Assembly (NCBI GenBank): GCA_013398955.1
Contig: VWPU01003086.1
Span: 32,498 to 96,497 of the forward strand
DNA: 64,000 bases
Source of the DNA: Callaeas wilsoni
Lineage: Eukaryota; Chordata; Aves; Passeriformes; Callaeidae
Direction: 5' to 3'
Shown here piece after piece: positions 7,405-63,420 of the stretch. A program made the position numbers and the translations under genes. Below the pieces are notes generated by a model. That model had not been told where the DNA came from and did not search any database. It worked only from the letters and a program-made list of their open reading frames with translations. Position 1 is the first letter of the stretch, and each line of letters opens with the position of its first letter.

Positions 7405-7456
7405 TGTTCTTTTATATCTATGACTAGAACATGCTAGTCATAGATATAAAAGAACA
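7405..7456. repeat. Perfect 23-bp inverted repeat with 6-nt loop
   Basis: The left arm 7405-7427 and right arm 7434-7456 are exact reverse complements over 23 bp, separated by AACATG. The arms are AT-rich (TGTTCTTTTATATCTATGAC and its complement). As RNA this would be a long hairpin; as DNA it could extrude as a cruciform. It lies about 170 bp upstream of the LTR at 7623 but does not form that LTR's boundary. Whether it is transcribed cannot be seen. Confidence 0.95.
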
Positions 7457-18426: not shown

Positions 18427-18431
18427 ATCTC

Positions 18432-18620
18432 CATCAGGGTTATGTAGTTATGTGCTCTAAGGAGATAGTTAATTGGGAATATTATCCTGATGGCTGTCCC
18501 CCATGAGTTGTTAGGAGAGCTAACAATACTGACTAGCAGACCTCTGCCTTTTCAAGCTACTGCCTGCTACGGCCTTTGCATCTGAACATCTTTGTCTCTT
18601 ACCTTGGGCCCACCCTGACA
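18432..18620 (+). repeat. Left LTR of the chromovirus-like element
   Basis: It aligns along its length to 19659-19845. Shared blocks include TCAGGGTT at the start, AATATTAT, AGGAGAGCTAA, GACTAGCAG/GGCTAGCAG, TCTGCCT, CTTTGTCTCTT and TGGGCC near the end, followed by CCCTGACA. Many substitutions and several indels separate the two copies, implying an ancient insertion. The polyadenylation signal of the right copy (AATAAA) reads AACAAT here. Confidence 0.8.
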
Positions 18621-19347
18621 ACCCTTCCAAACAGCCCCTGCGCTGGGAACTCTGGTGAAAGGTGTGTGGTACCCGCAGCCCTGAGCCTGTGTCCACAGGG
18701 GATGCTCCAGAAGTTCTACAGGGGGTGCAGAGAGCAGCGCAAGCTGAAGAATATGTGTGAGATGTGGGACAAGACTCAAGCCATGGTAGAACAGCTCTAA
18801 CATTGTGCAGAGAGTCCAACAAGGGCATGCACTTCTGCTCTCCATTTCCCCACTACTTTTCTTTTTTTGTGTGGTGGGAGTTTTCCCATTAGTCTGCTTA
18901 GCCCCTCCCTGATTTACTGGAAATAGAGACCCCTCTAGTTTTGCATCTTTCATGGAGATTTTTCTTGGAGGATTCTTCTCCCAGTGGTCACATTAAGGTC
19001 AGATTTCTTTTGTCCCATTAGGAGCCAAGTCCTTGGAGCTGGTTTAGTCCCTGAGCACTTGAGGAGACAGGGTTCTGGGATGACCATATCTCCTCACTTG
19101 TGAGGATGGAGGTGTTTTCGTGGCTGCTTCTACCTCTCCTGTTGTGCTTCCTGCTCAGTCTGTACTAGAGACTATACAAGACTTTCTCCACAATGTTTGT
19201 AGAGAAGGACTCCTCTGGGGATGTACAGCTGCTCTGTATCTTGCCCTGTATTTGCCATTGAGGGGACACCCATCAGGGTCTTCTGGAAGTGCAGATACTG
19301 CTTCCACAACTCCTCATTGTACTGGGTGTGGGCAGCTTCTGTATGCT

Positions 19348-19628
19348 CCCAGGATTCATACTGTTGTTCATGTATTCCTGTTAAAATCTCTTCTCCCAGA
19401 TCCCTTTCACCATCACGCTCAAACTCTGACTCCGGTTATGGTCCAGGCCAGAGACATACTGGATCTGGCAATCCTGGACTGCCAAACACCCTGGGGTACC
19501 CTGCAGTATTTGATTGATTGTACTGGGTACAAACTAGAGGACTGTTCCTGGGAGCCGGTGTCAGAGGTGCATATGTCAGATAAAGTTTGGGAATTCCATG
19601 CCCATCAACCTGCTAAGATTGGTGCATT
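19348..19628 (+). pseudogene. Integrase C-terminal tail with chromodomain, chromovirus pol remnant
   Basis: The frame reads PRIHTVVHVFLLK, a form typical of the end of the Ty3/Gypsy integrase C-terminal region. A proline-containing linker follows, then a chromodomain with LQYLIDC, TGY, EDCSWEP, a helix-like VWEFHAHQP and a final K-I-G. The order (HV.LLK, linker, chromodomain, stop of pol, polypurine tract, LTR) is that of chromovirus pol. In the family the chromodomain targets the integrase to marked chromatin. Here the aromatic residue expected after LQYL.D is replaced by Cys, so the methyl-lysine cage is probably lost. The sequence sits in a 212-codon open frame (19120-19758, GTG start) that continues into the right LTR. 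The N-terminal 75 residues are not recognisable integrase, so a deletion joins near residue 75. Confidence 0.8.
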
Positions 19629-19635
19629 GGGCATA

Positions 19636-19655
19636 GAAAGGAGGAGGGCAAAGAA
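19636..19655 (+). other. Polypurine tract
   Basis: GAAAGGAGGAGGGCAAAGAA is an almost unbroken purine run ending four bases before the right LTR. In LTR elements this run primes plus-strand DNA synthesis. Its position right after the chromodomain supports the chromovirus layout. Confidence 0.7.
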
Positions 19656-19658
19656 TGG

Positions 19659-19845
19659 AGTCAGGGTTGTACAGTTATTTGATGAAACAGTGATTTGTAA
19701 ATATTATGTCTGGAGCTGCCCTTGGTGTATTATGAGGAGAGCTAATAAAGCTGGCTAGCAGCCATACTTCTGCCTCTTTGAACAACTGCCCACTAGAGCC
19801 TTAAAACTTTATTTCTTTGTCTCTTTTTATGGGCCTGTCCTGATG
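19659..19845 (+). repeat. Right LTR of the chromovirus-like element
   Basis: It is the counterpart of 18432-18620. It keeps a polyadenylation signal AATAAA at 19744-19749 inside GCTAATAAAGCTGGCTAGCAG. Its end (TCCTGATG) is a decayed form of the CCCTGACA seen at the end of the left LTR. The target duplicate ATCTC follows immediately. Confidence 0.8.
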
Positions 19846-19850
19846 ATCTC

Positions 19851-22849
19851 TAACCTCCTAAACCATTCTCATCGACATATTCCATAATTTATGGCTCAAT
19901 CGCTACTGATTTTCTTCTATTAGTATCCTGGTTTTCAGTGTTTATTAGCATTTCTCTAAAATACCTGAGATGATCTTCACTATGAGAACTGCAGGTATCT
20001 GTTCTTCTTCTGAATATTTGTGTAAGAACAGCGGAACTGTCTCAGGAAGGAAAGAAGCCTGGAAAATAAAGTTTAGCATTTTCTGGTGCAAGTGAGGAAA
20101 ATCTTGTTACCAAAATGTTAAAAGCCAAGTGCTTTACCCTAGACAATAACTTTGCTGTCTATATTATAAGAATTAAACTGTGAATTTATTGAATGGCCAA
20201 GACAGCCAGCACCACAGTGTGTCACTTTAGCTGAAACTGACCAGTGAACAAAACTGTGATGCACATTGGGGCTATCTATCTCAGTGCAAAGTGGAGTAAG
20301 TGAATCAAGTATTAATATCAAAGTATAAGCCCATATGAAGCTCTTGTAGTTCCCAGGCTTGAGTAGCACAGTTTCTGAGATGAAGAATTAAACATAAATG
20401 TAGTGACTTGGTGCCAAAAATTATTGTCTGGTCAGTCTTTAATGAAGGAATATTATTGTGTAATACATTAAACAGCTCAAGTCACAAAGTTACTCTCACA
20501 TAGTTGCAGTGTTTGTCACTACTGAGTTCAGCACCATGACAGTACTATGTTCTTTGCCAGTGACGGATTAACGTGTCTATGCTGCTGCACTTTAACTGTT
20601 CAGAAGTAGGAGCTACTTGTGAAACAGTGCAAGTTTTGTTACACCTGCAAAAAATGCTTGTTGCTGATGGAGAGTGATTGGCTGCTGCTAAGGAAATCAG
20701 AACCTTTATAAGCCATCTCACAATACAGTGAAAAAGAGAGAGCTTCGGTATACTACTTATCCCATGTTTTATCCAATGTAATAAATTATATAATTTTTAA
20801 AAAAATAAAAACAAAACCCAAAACCTCCTCACTTATTTATTCATTATAAATTCTGAAAAATCAAGGTTTCATTTCAGAAACTTTATTCCTTTTGCAATCA
20901 ACACTTATCTGATATTGTGAGGAGGACTGGTAAGATTGCCTTGGGTCTGTGAGGTAGTATAGCTTTAATCTTATTGATCTGTTACTCATCCATCAGTTAT
21001 ATCAGGAACACCAGTCGTTTATTTGCTTAGGTTTGTCCCATTGTTTTTGCATTACCAATTTTTCAGTTGTGAATCTAAGTTAAGTTCAGGCATATAAAGA
21101 GATAACTGATCTGAGTATTTAAACATATATCTTTCTGTAAAGAACAAGCTCTCTTATAGTTTCAGTTATGTCAGTTTCATAATGTAAATTGCATTAGAAT
21201 TAACTCTTGGATGTTATTCCTTATAACACTGACAAGACACTAGAAAGGGAAGGCATAACTATAGGGACTAGAGAAGGTAACTGAGGATTAGATGTGAAAC
21301 ATTTGGGCATGTAAATTTTTAAGTCTTCAGTCCTTGGAAATATAGTAAAAAGCATTGGTATGACATGCTTAATCCTAAAAAAATATGAAACTATTGAACT
21401 CATAGAGAACTATAATTCTGAAAATTGGAAAATTTTTCTCTGGAAAATACATTTCTTTTCACATCTTCATATTACAACTACCTAACTTATCTGATAATGG
21501 TATTTGATAAAGGACACAGAATATTTGTTATAGGCTGTTTAACAAATATACCTTCCAGATTTCAGCTACTATGTGCTTTGGCTGTTTCAGAGAAATGTTT
21601 TATCTTGTGTGGTTTTTCTCATAGAAGCTCCCTGTCCCCACTACTCTCATCATCCATGGATCTCAGTAAAATACCAAAGGTTTAATCTAAATTTCCCAAA
21701 GCTACTAACTCTTGGTATGCAGAAAAGTCAATTGTACTGGCCAATGAGCTAATAACCTACAAGCAAAACCAATGTCCATCTTCCGATTTAGTTATCCCAT
21801 TTGCAGCAGCGATACATGCTGAAGCAGTCAGTGAAATCAGGAGGTTTTGGATATTTTAAGAATAAAAAAGAGGCAGAAGAAAAGTCTTAGAAAGCACATG
21901 AAAAAGAATGCACACGGAAAAAGGAATGTTACTTAGCTAGTCTACAATCTTCTTTAATGGCTGTTCCTGTAGCTTTCCTTTCAACTCATTGTAAGTGAGT
22001 CAGTATGTGGCACAAGCCATACACAATGACTCATCAGTAACAGGCAGTGTCTTACATAAAGGATACTTGATTTTGGAATGCCATTATCATTACCTATATA
22101 TTCAAGTGGATTCTTGCAAGGGAAGTATTTACTAATCTGAGCGTGATGGGTGTCAAACCAGGACTCAAATACGAATCTGGAGATTTTCTTTTACATCTAG
22201 ATGGATGAAAACTATCTATGGAGTGGAAGGAAGATGCAGTGGTTAGACATTTAAAGATTCTCCCAGAACAAAACAAAATGTTGGCCTTAAAATCATGATA
22301 GGCTGGATGTGCACATAGAAGATATATATGCATATATACGTTCATGCCAACCATGACCTTTCAGCTTTTCAGAAGCAGGCAGGCAGATCACTAAGAAAAC
22401 TTAAAGAGATAGCTCAGTAAGCAGTAAATACAAATTTAAATTATAGCAACTGACGTCCCTTTTTATCTGTTGGAATCAGCACCTTGTCAGATCTGAACCC
22501 AGATCCTAAATAAGCAAGTAGACTGCAGGAGACCAGTAAGCTACCATGGCCTCACACTTTGCCTTTAATCATGTTGCTGGTTTGTTATTGCTGCTAGCTG
22601 AGGACTCAAGTGATATTGACAATCTTCTCTGATTTTTTCTGTCACCAGCAATTGCTCCACCTTTTCAGGCAGCAGCTAGAAACCAAGACACTCCAAGGTT
22701 CTCTTATCATTTTGTCCCTTTCTCCTGGTCCTTCTTCTCAGGGCAGCAAATTTTCCCTGCTGGAAAGACCTTCAGTTTAGTGTAGAGCCTCAGGTGTTAT
22801 CTTATATCCACAAAGCTGTACAAAGTCCTGTCCCTTTTGAAGGTTATAA
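19851..22849. other. Unique DNA, nothing recognised
   Basis: AT-rich DNA without a recognisable repeat or gene. Minus-strand frames at 20139-20369, 21221-21403 and 22094-22354 lack motifs I can support. Confidence 0.4.
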
Positions 22850-29397: not shown

Positions 29398-29806
29398 GGA
29401 AACAGGCTGAGAAAGTCAGGGCTATTCAGCCAGGAGAAAAAATGGTTGTATGAAGACCTCATAGCAGCCTCCCAGGATCTGAAAGGGGCCTCCAAGGAAG
29501 CTGGAGAGGGACTGTTCATCAGGAACTGTAGTGATAGGACAAGAAGTAATGGATTCAATCTGAAAGAGGGGAAATTTAGGTTAGATATATGGAAAAAATT
29601 CTCTGCTATGAGGGTGGTGAGGCACTGGAGTAAGTTATCCACAGAAGCTGTGAATTCATCATCCCTGGAAGTGGTTAAGGGTTGGATGGAGTGCTGAGCA
29701 ACCCGGTCTAATGGAAGGTGTCCCCATCTATGACAGGGGTTTTGGAATGAGAAGGTTTCTACTGTCCCTTCCAAAACAAATCATTCTATGATTCTATGAT
29801 TCTATG
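29398..29806 (+). mobile_element. CR1 LINE 3' end, 5'-truncated
   Basis: The copy runs from AGGCTGAGAAAGTCAGGGCT through GAGGGTGGTGAGGCACTGGA and GAAGTGGTTAAGGGTTGGAT to TTCTATGATTCTATGATTCTATGG. The last block is the hallmark CR1 3' terminus, (ATTCTATG)n, with three units at 29783-29806. It contains the end of ORF2 and the 3' UTR only, the usual product of incomplete reverse transcription. Frames of 83 and 127 codons over it are remnants or antisense shadows and carry no intact enzyme domain. Confidence 0.92.
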
Positions 29807-29952: not shown

Positions 29953-30307
29953 CCTCTCGGAGAGAAAGCACCATAACTTACACAGTGACATATTGTGTGC
30001 ACTCAGTGACACAAGGTGACAGTATAGATGCATTTTCAGAACTATGAGAAGCCGAATATACCACTTTTAATGTTAATGAGTTTAGTGCATGAAAGACCCA
30101 GAGCCCTGTGTGGGTGTTTGCCCCTGTGCTTGGAATGATTAATTCCGGTGAAGAAGTCCCTAAAGTACAATTTGCAATGCAGACATGAATATACACAGCC
30201 AGATGCTGCCCTTTCCAAGGGAAAAAGGGTACTTTAAATTAAAGTTTCACTATGAGTTTTCCATTTGATTTAATGTTACTCTTTGACTCCATAAAGCAAA
30301 CCCTTAT
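29953..30307. other. Unique DNA, nothing recognised
   Basis: Short unique stretch between two microsatellites. No gene or repeat was recognised. Confidence 0.4.
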
Positions 30308-30431
30308 TTGCAGAGGGAGGCAGGCAGGCAGGAAGGGAGAGAAAGAGGAAGAGAAAGAGGAAGACAGAGACAGAGAGGAAGCGAGAGAAAGAGAGAAAGA
30401 GAGAAAGAGAGAAAGAGAGAAAGAGAGAGAG

Positions 30432-30502
<71 letters not shown>

Positions 30503-30652
30503 NTTGCAGAGGGAGGCAGGCAGGCAGGAAGGGAGAGAAAGAGGAAGAGAAAGAGGAAGACAGAGAAAGAGAGGAAGCGAGAGAAAGAGGGAAAGAGGGA
30601 AAGAGGGAAAGAGGGAAAGAAAGAAAGAAAGAAAGAGAAAGAAAGAAAGAAA
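30308..30652. repeat. GAAA/GAGAAA microsatellite with single N and duplicated flank
   Basis: A purine-only tract is made of GAGAAA, GAAA and GGAAA units. The unresolved base N is at 30503. The sequence that begins the tract (TTGCAGAGGGAGGCAGGCAG and the next ~65 bases) starts again immediately after the N at 30504, with one difference in the first ~85 bases (GACAGAGAC versus GACAGAGAA). This pattern suggests two reads, contig ends or alleles of one locus placed in tandem rather than a true duplication. All open frames here are low-complexity artefacts. Confidence 0.9.
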
Positions 30653-33600
30653 ATTCCTCTAACTGTGCATGACTGGGACATATTTTGGACTATTATAGCA
30701 GTGTTTAATATAAAATCATTGTTGTGCATCACATGAATCATACTGACTCTCTTCTTTGAAACTGCAGTACTAGGGAGTTTGGATATCTCATCAACCTCCA
30801 TTCTGTTGCCTCCTGCTCTTTCTGCAATTGATTCTTAGAAGCGTGATTTTTTTAGAGTGCAGATCTGCTGTTTGTTGATGCGATTGCCCTTTGTTTTCTC
30901 TCACCAGTTTTCTTACCCAAGTTAAAGACAGTGAGACAGGGGTAGGAGTTGGTCAGCTGATCCATGACTCTGAGATAAATCCTTTCCCTAATGCTACTTC
31001 TTTAGTCAAACCTGTAGAAATGAAAAACTTCAATCAGTATCAGTATGGTTTATTGTTTTATGAAGGATTAACTGATAATCAGTGATCTATAATTCAGCAC
31101 CAGTATCAGATATGTAGCAAATAAGCTGCAATCCTTAATGACTACAAAATTTCATCCTTCTTTTATATTTTTCAAAATTCTCTCTGAGATTCCTCAATTA
31201 CTGTATAATCCTGATGGCAATCTTCTTCTTCAACATAATTTTTGATAAGTAGCATTTCGGGCAGATTTACGCATTTTATCCACACATATTAGTTATATTC
31301 ACATTCCTAATTTACCAGCTAATTCTGTCTGGGGTATTTTGCTATGGATAGGCAAAGAAAACACCCCAGTAGAGCCTATTAATAAAAAAATCCCAAGAAG
31401 ATGTGACCTGGAATCAAGCAAGCGTTGCTGATAGGAACTGGGGCAGGACTGACACGAGGAGCAAATAAAAGTATTCATTACATTATAAAAAGATTTGTGT
31501 TCAGATGAGAAATACTGGCATGCAGAAAAAGGAGCAACAGAAGAACTGAACCACGTGGGCCCATATTAAAAATAAAAAAAACTGTGTAGGGCCTGTGCAT
31601 TGCACACTGACAGAGTTGAGCACGAGTCATCGGGTGATGGTCGTATCTGTCTTCCTTTGAGTACGGGTCTTCAGGGCAAACAAAAGGTCAGAGGTGTGGA
31701 AGCAGCACGCCCAGCACTCACCTGCAGCACTCCTGCAGTGTGCATTTGAGATGACAGAGGATTTGGCCTGGCAATCTGACAGTTTCTTCCTTTTGAAAAC
31801 ACGCACTTAGCTCCTTGCTACTCTCTATCAACAGTGCCTTGCTCGTTCTCCCTCTCTGGGCTCTGTGACAGCTAGTTCCGATGACATGATGCCTCACAAA
31901 ACCTCTCCCATTTTGACACTGTAAGCAGCAGCAGGAGCAGCGTTCCCTCTGTAGGCCACTTTAAGACCTCCCTCTTTAATTCTGTAAATTAGACACACAT
32001 TTTTTGGCAGCTGCTCTCTGAGATCTGCAGGCTAAATTGTTTTCATTGCTGAAGAGGCTGTTATACCACCTGGGGGTGAACTCAACAACCAGCCTGACCC
32101 TTGTTAAACGTGCATTTTCTGGGAAAGTGCCTGCTTTTGAGAACAGAAAATCATTCCTGCTGCTCTGATGACTAGCTTAATTTCTGAAGGCTGTGTCCGA
32201 TGCCAGGTCACAATACAGCTGTCATCTTTCTTAAGGACTATATTTCCTTTCTAGAACTGTATACAGAATCAGAATCATCTTGCGCTTAATGCCTGCATGA
32301 TGAGTGGGAAATACTCCAAATCATTTGGACTTAAATTTATGCTAAGCTTTGAGAGGATTATGAATGTATGTATGTACTTTCTTTGAATAGAAGAATGCTG
32401 CAAATTCAGTTGAAAATAAGGATGCAAACCCATGCACACTAGAACTGAAGAAAAAAGTTTCCACAAATATTTTTGAACAGAAATCAGTCAGTTCCCATAG
32501 AGTAATTTCCATGTGACAGGCTATGGGGATCTCTTTCATCTTCTCTTGCTGATCTGCTGGACAAACCTTCATTCCTACATTGATTGGTGTAGAACTATGC
32601 TCTGATCTCTTTTTTCTTGTTCTTCCAGAAACGCAGATTCTAAACTAGAAAAACCAAGTCTGTAAAGTGAAGACAAAATTGTGCCATGAAGGCTGAAATG
32701 GAATTACTACATAAGCTTCACAAACTAAATCATTTTAGTAATAACATAAATAATTCTGCAAGATGCACTGTGTTTTGCATAGGTAAATTGAGCATGATTT
32801 CATTACAGTCATCTACTTGATATGTTGGATTTCAATGATGGCTCATGAATACTGCATATTAGTTTCTATTAACTATATATTGAGGATTTCTTTTGGTAAC
32901 TATGTAATTTTGCATTTTGTTTTTGGTTAATTCCAAGATGAGATAGAAAATAAATGCCCATAACCAAATACAGTATAAAAGCTAACATAGCTTTTATATT
33001 AGCAAGTGTAAGTACTATATTGAATCTTTCACTTCTTTCTGGTCATTTGAGCATATATATTATGTATAACAATTATGTATAATAATAACCACATAGAAAT
33101 CCTATAAGACATGCTGGTAGCACCACCAATTGTTAAAGACTGTCTCATGGAACAATTGCAGCTACAGTTCTCATATAGTAGTCCTTCCTCTTCTGTACCA
33201 TATGAAAACCCTAAGAATTAGTTACATCTATTATGCATCTATTAAAATTCTTCTTTTTCATTGAGATCTTTCTAGTGAACTTCAAATGAAAAATTTTATA
33301 ACCATATTTTATGTGGTTTATACTTTTAAACAGTTAGAGTTACAAGAATAAATACTGCTTTTTATTTCTCTCTTTCCAACACAAGAAATATATTATTTCT
33401 GTGGAACATGATTCTCCAAATACTCAGTGTAGGACAAATATCAAGGGTGTTGAAATGGAAACTGCAATGGTGTGCTGCAGAATATGTAGAAATGTCAATG
33501 AATAACTCTGTATTTTAAGAAGGCCAGAGATGTGACTAAACACAAATGATTAGTTTTATTCTTTTTATTGAAAAATTTGTTACTGAAGTACAAGCATCAT

Positions 33601-49978: not shown

Positions 49979-52201
49979 AAGCTCTGTCACCATGTTTATT
50001 GCTTCCATAATTATGCTGCAAAATATGGGAGAACCATAACTTTTTGAGGGAGATATAATTTTGTCCATAAGAATGAAAACTAAATGTTGTCCATACTAAT
50101 TGGTTATGGATGGCCAGTATAAATCTTTTGTGCTCTCTGAATTGGCATGTAGCACTTAACTCCCTCTAATCTCTTTGTCCATATTTTTCTTTATTAGTTC
50201 AGCATGTCAAGGTAGACAGATTACACTACTCAGGATGTAATTCTTGTCAGTCACTGCAGCCCTGTCTCTCTGAACCGAAACAGTATTCTGCCAAGTATTT
50301 CAAAGGTCTTGGATTGGTACTGCAACCCAAAAAACCACAAGCTAGGAATTATGCTCAGTCTAAAAGAGATTAGTTTTAAAAATGCCTTTAGTTTTAAAAC
50401 TAAAGACTAGTTTTAAAAATGGGAAGATAGGGATGTCTGTTAGGACTATTCATATAGTAAAATGCTCACCACTCTGAGACTCCTTAGGTTCTGAATGCCA
50501 TTTCTACAAGGGTCAAGATCCCATCTTTCATGGATTTGTACTAAGCTTCAGTGATGATTGAAAACCTTACTCCCTTTGACTTACCTAGGAATCATCTAGG
50601 GGTATCATGCAGTATAGGTTTATGAATCTCAAACTACTATTGGAGGAAAAACTGCCACAAGTTCACACAGACTTGATGCACATCACAAAGTTTTTTGAAA
50701 ACAGAAGGATTACTTGCAAAATAAAATTCCTAATGTTCCCATTTAAAAATTTAATTTTTTGATCAAAACCAGGTATGGACTGTCATAGACTGATTACGAC
50801 TATGAACAGGCTGAAAAACAGTGTTTTAAGGTGTAAGGTGCCTGGCTTCCCTTCAGCATGAAACCTGCAAAACCTGAGGCTTTATCAATTTCACTCCTGA
50901 TTTGTTAGGAAGAGGTGAGGAAAATGGAAGTGTTAATGTGTCAGCATGGCAACCAGATGAGTGTAAGGAAAAGTGAGAAGAATCTCACTGAAAAAGAAGG
51001 AGCAGGGAAATGGGAAAAACTGAAAAGATAAAGAAGAATCAAAACGGCCATAGAGGTAGTCTGCCCATTTGGTTTGCTTGCCATCTTTTTGGATTTAGTT
51101 TTTAGGGGCAATAAAAGTAATCCATCCACAAACACCAAAGAAGCTAAGAAGTAAATGACCATTAAAGAATATATTTAAATATAGAAACAAGTGCGGTGAA
51201 ACTCTAAGGAGAATATTTAGGTGTTCAATAAAGCTCAAATTAGTTAATAGATGCAAAGGCTGAAAGAAAATTGGCTGTGGTGTTTCATCGCATTTTAGAA
51301 AGTTTTATACTTTCTGTTTGGTGACAAGCTCATCAGAGTGCCTTAAAAGTACTTAGACTGTCAAGTTCCACTACCCTTACTGGATTTTTTTCCAAACTTT
51401 CCACTATTTCTGATAGTTGAACATTTTTCCTGGTTTTCTAAACTTTAATGTAGTTATTTTAATTTGGTGTTTTATCAGTCTTGTTATATAGCTAAACTAG
51501 TCCTTTTCCTTTCCTAGAGGTCATGCTTTCATTTTGCTATGCCAAACAAACCATAGTTTATCTCGTTTTTGCTCACAACAGGTTGCATATTGACTCTTGT
51601 CTGTATCCTTTTTCCTAAACACTGTATTAGAAACACTCCTACTGTAAAAGAACATAGAATGCTAGCAAGGAACCCTGGGATCTCGCCATCTCTTCCCTTG
51701 GAAATATCTTTTTTCATAACTCTTGACTTGCACTTTTTCTGTTATCAACTGTTACACTTAATTCCCCTAATCTTTTGTCATTTCCAGCTAAACAGTTTTC
51801 AGTTAATAATGAATTTTCTTATTACCACTCCCTAAGGATAGGACTAAGCAGCTGTACTATTAAATTTCATCTCATACCTTGCAGGCTATTTCACAAGGTG
51901 ACCCAGTTTTTCATCCCTCTTTTTGATGATGCTGAACAACTTTGTTTTATCAGCAGGCCTCATTAGCTCTCTTCTGCCAAAAACTTTAATGAAAATATTA
52001 AATTATGTTGGTCCAAAGACTGATCTCTGAATCTCTGTAAGTTTCCTCCAAACTGATAATTTTCTTCTCAGATCAGGCCAATGCAATTTCCTCTTCAACC
52101 ACATTAAAGCCTTTACAAAATATATTCTCAAGTAATGGTTTCAAATTATTTTCTGATATGTTATCTTTGCTTAATCCATGAGGTGTTGGTTGTGGTTTTT
52201 T
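49979..52201. other. Unique DNA with one 20-bp palindrome
   Basis: Besides the palindrome at 50386-50405 nothing was recognised. Short frames on both strands near 50941-51162 and 51529-51966 show no motif. Confidence 0.4.
50386..50405. repeat. Perfect 20-bp palindrome
   Basis: CTTTAGTTTTAAAACTAAAG is its own reverse complement with no spacer. Near copies of TAGTTTTAAAAATG stand on both sides (50371-50384 and 50408-50421), so the palindrome lies inside a small direct repeat. Confidence 0.92.
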
Positions 52202-52288
52202 TTAAATTACACTTTCAATTTCATTGTAAGTGTAATTTAAAAATTTTTCATTGTAAGTGAAATTTTTTAAATTTCACTTACAATGAAA
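52202..52288. repeat. Cluster of direct and inverted repeats
   Basis: A 20-bp word TTTCATTGTAAGTG(T/A)AATTT occurs directly at 52219-52238 and 52246-52265, and inverted at 52269-52288. The latter two form a perfect 20-bp stem with a 3-nt loop. A second hairpin (12-bp arms, 52202-52213 and 52229-52240) overlaps the first copy. The cluster could fold into two competing hairpins. Confidence 0.92.
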
Positions 52289-61732: not shown

Positions 61733-62324
61733 TAGGAGGATAAGGAGTTGGTTTGGTGGTCACATCCAGAGGGTAGGGAGCACATAGGTATCTCATGTAT
61801 TTGAATATGACCAAGTGCTGGTGCTGCACATGGGTCAGGGCAACCCCCGCTGCCAGCCCAGGCTGGGGATGAACAGATGGACAGCAGCCCTGCCCAGAAG
61901 GACTTGGGGGTGCTGGGGGTGAGAGCTGGACATGAGCCAGCCATGGGCACTCCCAGCCCAGCAAGCCAAGTGTGCCCTGGGCTGCAGCCAAACCCCGTGG
62001 GCAGCAGGGGAGGGAGGGGATTCTGCCCCTCTGCCCTGCTCTGGTGAGACCTCACCTGCAGAGCTGCCTCCAGCCCTGGGGTCCCAGCACAGGAAGGACG
62101 TGGAGCTGCTGGAGAGAGTGCAGAGGAGGGACACCAAGGTGATCAGAGGGATGGAGCACCTGTCCCATGGGGAAAGACTGAGAGACTTGGGGTTGTTCAG
62201 CCTGGATAAAATTAGAAGGCTTCTGGGTGACCTAACTGTGAGCTTCCAGTGCCTGAAGGAAGCCCTCAACAGAGAAAGGGACTTTTTAAGAGTACGTGGC
62301 GATAGGTCAAGGAGGAATGGCTTC
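61733..62324 (+). mobile_element. CR1 LINE copy, first part (split by an LTR)
   Basis: It contains GGTTTGGTGGTCACATCCAG, then GTGCTGCACATGGGTCAGGG, AGAAGGACTTGGGGGTGCTG, GAGAGCTGGACATGAGCCAG, GAGAGTGCAGAGGAGGGACA, GGTTGTTCAGCCTGGATAAA and GATAGGTCAAGGAGGAATGG, in the order of the CR1 3' ORF2 region. There is an internal deletion near 61770-61810. The copy stops abruptly at AATGGCTTC where an LTR begins, and the expected continuation is found at 63146. The frames of 107-144 codons on either strand are retroelement remnants with stops. Confidence 0.88.
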
Positions 62325-63145
62325 CGTCCTGGGGTGATTTTATGACGATCCTCTATTCCCTAATCCTCTGCTCAATGCCCAGAAATGGTTGTTGTAGCTT
62401 TAAGATGGGTCCGGGGCAGGGAGGGACCCTGCGGGCTCTCGCGTTAGCTCAGGCAAGGTTTTTTCCCTTTTCTCCAGCCCTGGAGACTGCAATTCTCCAG
62501 CGGTATTTTTTTTTTTTATTTCTTTTTTTTCTTCTTTTTTTTTTTTTTTTTTCCTCTTGAACTGTTCCGCTTGGTTTTGGTGCGAGATCAGAGAGGACAA
62601 ATCGATGGGAGAAGCATCGGCCGTGGACCGGCGGGGACCCGAGGAGTCGCTCCGTCCCGGCCCCAGACCGCAGAAGGGGCCGGCCCGGCGAAAGTAAGGC
62701 CCCTGAATCCACCCGCCTCGTCTTCTGTGACCAGGAGACTAACATCGGAGACTCGCCAGGTTCCCATCTGCTTTTTTCCCGAGCTGCTGTGAGAACTTTT
62801 TTGATTTTCTCTGAGACAAAAGCCGGCACTATTTTGTTCCTCCTTGCCACGTGGCCAGCCGTTTTTTTTCTTCCCCTGGGATTTTGGTTTTTTTTTTGTT
62901 CTGGCGTGGGAGGTGTGTGTATGTGTGGGGTAAGGTTCTGACGATTTAATATCTAGCATTTATTCGTTTTTTTCCCATGCATTGTGGACACCCGGTTCGT
63001 CAATAAATGGTTGAGTTTTTTCTACTTTCGTCCACTAATATTCATTTTCTCATTGGCAAAAAGGGATTGTTGGAACCCTTTTTTTGTTAGCGGAAACAGT
63101 CATTCCAGAGTGTTCTTCTCCTAAACTTGTCTCTAAACTGAGACA
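62325..63145 (+). mobile_element. ERV LTR nested in a CR1 copy
   Basis: The start CGTCCTGGGGTGATTTTATG matches the start of the LTR at 13431 (TGTCTTGGGGTGATTCTATG); the first TG appears mutated to CG. The end is CTAAACTGAGACA. AATAAA is at about 63003-63008. The body is GC- and CpG-rich (62580-62720) with T-rich runs (62506-62552). The flanks (GCTTC on the left, ATTTC on the right) could be an imperfect 5-bp target duplication. Because CR1 sequence resumes exactly after 63145, this is an insertion into an older CR1. No internal viral genes are present, so it is a solo LTR of about 821 bp. Confidence 0.8.
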
Positions 63146-63388
63146 ATTTCAGACTGAAAGTCAATAGGTTTAGATTAGAGACTGGGGAAAAAGTTTTTGC
63201 TATGAGGGTGGTGAGGCACTGGCACAGGTTACCCAGACAAGTTGTGGCTGCCCGATCTCTGGAAGTGTTCGAGGTCTTTTTGGATGGAGCTGTAAGCAAC
63301 CTGGTCTTGTGGAAGGTGCCTTTCCCCTGGCAGTGGAATGAGATGAGCTTTAAGGTCCTTTCCTACCCGAGCTATTCTATGATTCTAC
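63146..63388 (+). mobile_element. CR1 LINE copy, second part with 3' end
   Basis: It continues the CR1 interrupted at 62324: CAGACTGAAAGTCAATAGGT, TATGAGGGTGGTGAGGCACT, GGAAGTGTTCGAGGTC, GCAACCTGGTCTTGTGGAAG, ending TATTCTATGATTCTAC, a decayed (ATTCTATG)n terminus. A run of 15 A follows at 63406-63420 but is separated from the CR1 end by unrelated bases. Confidence 0.9.
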
Positions 63389-63420
63389 AATTAGTGACGT
63401 CCTTGAAAAAAAAAAAAAAA

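Follow-up and report, generated by a model that had tools for sequence, protein, structure and literature searches.

An ancient chromodomain Ty3/Gypsy relic in a 64,000-nucleotide window of the Callaeas wilsoni genome

Whether the genome of a bird can hold the remains of a chromovirus, i.e., of a Ty3/Gypsy retrotransposon with an integrase ending in a chromodomain, is the question raised by a short locus of Callaeas wilsoni. In the window (the whole stretch of 64,000 nucleotides that was analysed) the first-pass annotation had marked a fossil of such an element, with an integrase-tail segment and a chromodomain placed before a polypurine tract and a long terminal repeat (LTR). This identification is strongly supported by the LTR pair, by BLASTP, and by profile scores in comparison with shuffled sequences; since both the LTR pair and the match to a Gypsy profile stand far above their controls, the locus is recognised as a chromovirus relic. 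With high confidence, the locus goes back to the ancient insertion of a chromovirus into the genome of a host ancestor, and the copy is now dead.

Terminal repeats and interior of the element

Two direct repeats with starts separated by ~1.23 kb lie within positions 18432-19865. The alignment of 18434-18632 with 19661-19863 is identical in 137 of 192 columns (71%) and contains 34 transitions, 21 transversions, and six gaps, which corresponds to a K2P distance of 0.373. Its score of 58, against a maximum of 18.5 among 500 dinucleotide shuffles, establishes the homology of the segments 18432-18620 and 19659-19845, which had been proposed as an LTR pair. The collinear repeat blocks D1, D3, D6, D8, and D10, with a spacing of 1222-1227, were found among the 20 of 33 families listed by the repeat finder.

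The 5' LTR (18432..18634, + strand) is delimited by alignment with the 3' LTR, its outer ends being inferred, and the 3' LTR (19659..19865, + strand) by the reciprocal alignment, its 3' end being placed from the CA end and a candidate target-site duplication. More generally, the LTR ends were set by TG/CA-like termini together with this candidate 5-bp duplication, whose 5' copy ATCTC (18427..18431) and 3' copy TTCTC (19866..19870) were read by eye and agree in 4 of 5 bases, which is weak evidence when taken alone and without a chance control. The 3' LTR of the first-pass annotation is real, but not its end at 19845, since the repeat extends ~20 bases further, to ~19865. It carries an AATAAA polyadenylation signal (19744..19749, + strand) in the sense orientation to the pol fragment, the sole AATAAA or ATTAAA on the + strand from ~18400 to ~19900 as judged by eye without a chance control.

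Approximately 1.0 kb remains between the LTRs. The polypurine tract was correctly anticipated before the LTR: the segment 19635..19658 (+ strand) has 22 purines among 24 bases (counted by eye, without control) and abuts the 3' LTR. The order of the parts is integrase tail, chromodomain, purine tract, and LTR, with which the sense poly(A) signal agrees. The pol fragment is held by a stop-to-stop open frame of 224 codons (19084..19755, + strand), which continues into the 3' LTR, while the internal remainder of ~0.7 kb (18635..19347, + strand) is unrecognised and may be a leader or gag remnant or other DNA. Pfam matches to the ORFs of this remainder all stayed above E 0.07, the US22 match of E 0.072 in a minus-strand ORF being taken as noise; inspection of 18635-18670 by eye gave nothing recognisable as a primer-binding site or self-priming leader, and Rfam at gathering thresholds gave 0 matches.

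Neither reverse transcriptase (RT), RNase H, integrase core, nor gag was recognised in the window by phmmer with 10 whole Gypsy pol or gag-pol proteins, picked by hand from 120 relatives and run over 2931 segments. The nine rows of hits on the chromodomain ORF reached a best E of 1.3e-11, and elsewhere in the window just two stray rows were obtained (E 0.69 and 0.72). Because RT, RNase H, and the integrase core were not recognised with these 10 proteins, a tree cannot be used to assign the copy to a clade.

By analogy with the family, the living element would have been transcribed from its LTR and reverse transcribed, synthesis of the second strand starting from the polypurine tract as primer. 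Its integrase would have inserted the product, probably steered by the chromodomain towards marked chromatin. Most of gag-pol is missing from the copy, having been lost either before insertion, the inserted copy being a deleted non-autonomous one, or by later deletion, and what remains has decayed and is dead.

The window contains few self-matching repeats, and no host gene was recognised in it. Two segments, which we take to be 3' ends of CR1-like elements, lie at 62171-63392 (+ strand, with a ATTCTATG unit at 63374) and at 29398-29801 (with three ATTCTATG tail units at 29783-29806); CR1-like 3' ends with ATTCTATG tails fit a bird host but are not known to be unique to birds. The former is split from ~62324 to ~63148 by ~0.8 kb of CpG-rich DNA, which may be an LTR-like insertion of recent date or else a CpG island, with a CpG observed/expected ratio of 0.83 over 62344-63100 compared with 0.17 in the window. 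A long GA-rich simple repeat occupies 30333-30652 and includes the sole N of the window at 30503. Three A+T-rich palindromes (7405-7456, 50374-50418, and 52219-52288) of 45-70 bases are 83-92% self-complementary and, judging by their letters, could fold into hairpins.

The pol fragment and its decay

The C-terminal pol fragment, consisting of the integrase tail and the chromodomain, is located at 19348..19623 (+ strand). It was recognised with a joint Gypsy profile of 128 positions, built from 123 pieces, namely, 120 proteins (those listed of the 236 matched by the C-terminus of locus L006) and the loci L006, L008, and L009 described below. The profile was run over all 2931 six-frame segments of the window with 15 or more residues, where residues 89-180 of the ORF scored 49.5 bits (E 5.6e-14), the next best segment 6.6 bits, and the maximum in 40 dinucleotide-preserving shuffled windows 10.7 bits. 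Thus the chromodomain reported from the letters alone is well founded; it covers 19471..19599 (+ strand) and positions 6-51 of the 53 in Pfam PF00385.

When the two halves of the profile were scored separately, that of the chromodomain reached 40.5 bits; the score for the tail was 9.5 bits with E 0.14, which is not significant alone. The joint score exceeds that of the chromodomain half, and the tail is collinear and in frame with the chromodomain, so that the integrase tail claimed in the first-pass annotation is supported mainly by collinearity and frame. Within the translation of 19120-19758, which that annotation named, homology to Gypsy was confirmed for 19348-19623 and is limited to this part.

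The general Pfam Chromo model (PF00385) matched the ORF weakly, at E 0.0018, its 18.6 bits falling short of the 25.1 set as its cut-off. This match ranked first in a Pfam scan of 93 ORFs of the window (those of at least 78 residues among 138 of at least 70, ORFs starting at 30200-30900 within a simple repeat being dropped), but the next matches followed at 0.0023 and 0.006, and with E values so near each other Pfam alone does not decide on the chromodomain.

Searches in protein databases yielded 223 candidates for the window ORF, none at E 0.1, and three candidates for a 101-residue region, none at E 10. A scan of a prokaryote genome collection for the chromodomain motif returned four loci, three of which (L006, L008, and L009) are real Gypsy pols with SH3_Tf2-1 and Chromo domains above the Pfam cut-offs, and the fourth (L007) is a 24-codon frame that looks like chance. 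In BLASTP with the window ORF the three pols scored 39.7 (L006), 43.5 (L008), and 44.7 bits (L009), and each best alignment begins in the integrase tail and runs through the chromodomain. These pols with chromodomain were found in bacterial bins, L006 and L008 (MAG labelled uncultured Trichormus) and L009 (MAG labelled Deltaproteobacteria), and the contigs are evidently eukaryotic contamination of the bacterial reference bins. The search for related loci in a viral contig collection gave three pattern matches, none of them confirmed; the chromodomain-motif patterns found 1, 4, and 0 stretches there, and the five, read in frame, look unrelated: they stand outside any chromodomain context, and four of them share one frame.

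The fragment is considerably decayed. Its identity to the 123 relatives is 24-38%, compared with a median of 53% among the relatives themselves, and it keeps 21 of the 42 covered columns that are conserved in at least 80% of the relatives, the first few columns of this alignment being poorly placed. The chromodomain tryptophan, present in 123 of 123 relatives, is replaced by cysteine. The CpG observed/expected ratio is 0.10 in the element, against the window value of 0.17.

An open frame in so decayed a copy may suggest that the host took over the chromodomain fragment as a small gene and kept its frame open. The frame is open over 92 codons, whereas 1.66 stops would be expected in them under neutral simulation. 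Of 5000 neutral runs, made at half of the LTR divergence with frameshifts outside the simulation, 17% remained free of stops, and the six gaps between the LTRs imply that some frameshifts should be expected, yet the fragment reads in one frame. Nevertheless, such an exaptation is considered very unlikely, since the invariant tryptophan is now cysteine, one in two conserved columns has been lost, the frame continues into the LTR and, upstream, into unmatched sequence, and readability itself caused the fragment to be noticed. Given this ascertainment, the open frame of 92 codons is not evidence of function.

Age of the insertion

With the copy read as a dead chromovirus, the LTR divergence (K2P 0.37) means that the element is old. 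The average substitution rate of birds is 1.9e-9 per site per year, and at this rate the K2P of 0.373 corresponds to ~98 million years. The chicken calibration, in which an LTR divergence of 10% equals 13.5 million years (PMC5006616), gives ~50 million years. By the crocodilian rate of 3.9e-10 (PMC4299795) the same distance amounts to ~480 million years, which is older than crocodilians, and an insertion of this age in the crocodilian lineage is implausible. The divergence favours a host that evolves faster, such as a bird, and the scarcity of self-matching repeats in the window likewise speaks against a turtle, crocodilian, or other sauropsid host.

The first-pass annotation had left the choice between an early fossil and an unusual later arrival, and the LTR divergence (K2P 0.373) fits an old insertion, which may be early avian or pre-avian, rather than a late one. 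That a chromovirus reached a bird by recent horizontal transfer can be given hardly any credence: no support was found, the relic being a single copy in the window, and such a transfer is opposed by the divergence of the LTRs, by the nearly complete loss of CpG (0.10), and by the loss of most of the element. An origin from a host gene of the CBX, CDYL, or MPP8 kind, as a retrocopy or exon lying between the repeats by chance, has practically negligible probability, since its weak matches in a phmmer search of solved structures (MPP8, 18.0 bits, E 0.02; CBX1, 17.8 bits) are opposed by the three Gypsy pols with 39.7-44.7 bits in BLASTP over tail and chromodomain (a rough comparison, as the programs differ) and by the half-profile with 40.5 bits, the LTR pair and the purine tract are placed where an element needs them, and no host protein with a solved structure matched better, so that this check, too, came out in favour of Gypsy.

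Gypsy elements in birds and other amniotes

The ancient chromovirus insertion has to be considered against the printed view of this superfamily in amniotes. In a review (PMC7397244) Gypsy elements are stated to be absent from avian and mammalian genomes, while they make up ~3% of crocodilian genomes. Likewise, Gypsy is named among the clades of fish and reptiles in contrast to birds (PMC5486457), and chicken elements were classified with the use of Gypsy references, no Gypsy find being noted in the available part of that study (PMC5006616). On the other hand, Gypsy protein fossils that predate amniotes are described in human (PMC9004415). In the same paper a turtle repeat is classified as Gypsy. 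At least four Gypsy rows stand in a table, one of them naming alligator, and Table 5 of the paper lists another 83; the word "chicken" is absent from the text as available. Among the matches listed in the literature search, which consist of titles and the beginnings of abstracts and cover few subscription papers, none reports a chromovirus relic in a bird.

Thus the statement of the first-pass annotation that such elements are missing in birds agrees with print (PMC7397244), but the same sentence of the review extends the absence to mammals, where fossils are known (PMC9004415). Because the printed absence also covers these mammals, such a relic in a bird comes as less of a surprise than the first-pass annotation implies.

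Because Callaeas wilsoni is a bird, what has been printed as an absence would be better termed an extinction of Gypsy, with the relic as its fossil, and a Gypsy copy with both LTRs would date chromovirus movement in the avian lineage. There is about an even chance that chromoviruses were active in the bird line into the Cretaceous or early Palaeogene and left relics that went unrecognised, which would turn the printed absence into a datable extinction. The LTR and the chromodomain of the relic may serve as a probe for further relics possibly filed as unknown LTRs. The current view of how the family works is left unchanged by the relic.

In comparison with known systems, the relic resembles the Ty3/Gypsy chromoviruses (chromodomain-bearing Metaviridae) in that an integrase tail and a chromodomain end pol and are followed by a polypurine tract and an LTR, and in its short LTRs (about 205 bp). 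Unlike them, it has only ~1.0 kb between the LTRs with no recognised RT, RNase H, integrase core, or gag, and it has lost the chromodomain tryptophan. The element of Anolis in Piskurek et al. 2009, reportedly and by the title of that paper a full-length chromodomain Ty3/Gypsy element, is similar as a chromodomain Gypsy in a sauropsid and differs in being full-length. The amniote Gypsy fossils (PMC9004415) are, like the relic, old pieces of Gypsy coding sequence preserved in the genomes of amniotes; unlike these protein fossils, however, the relic keeps both of its LTRs.
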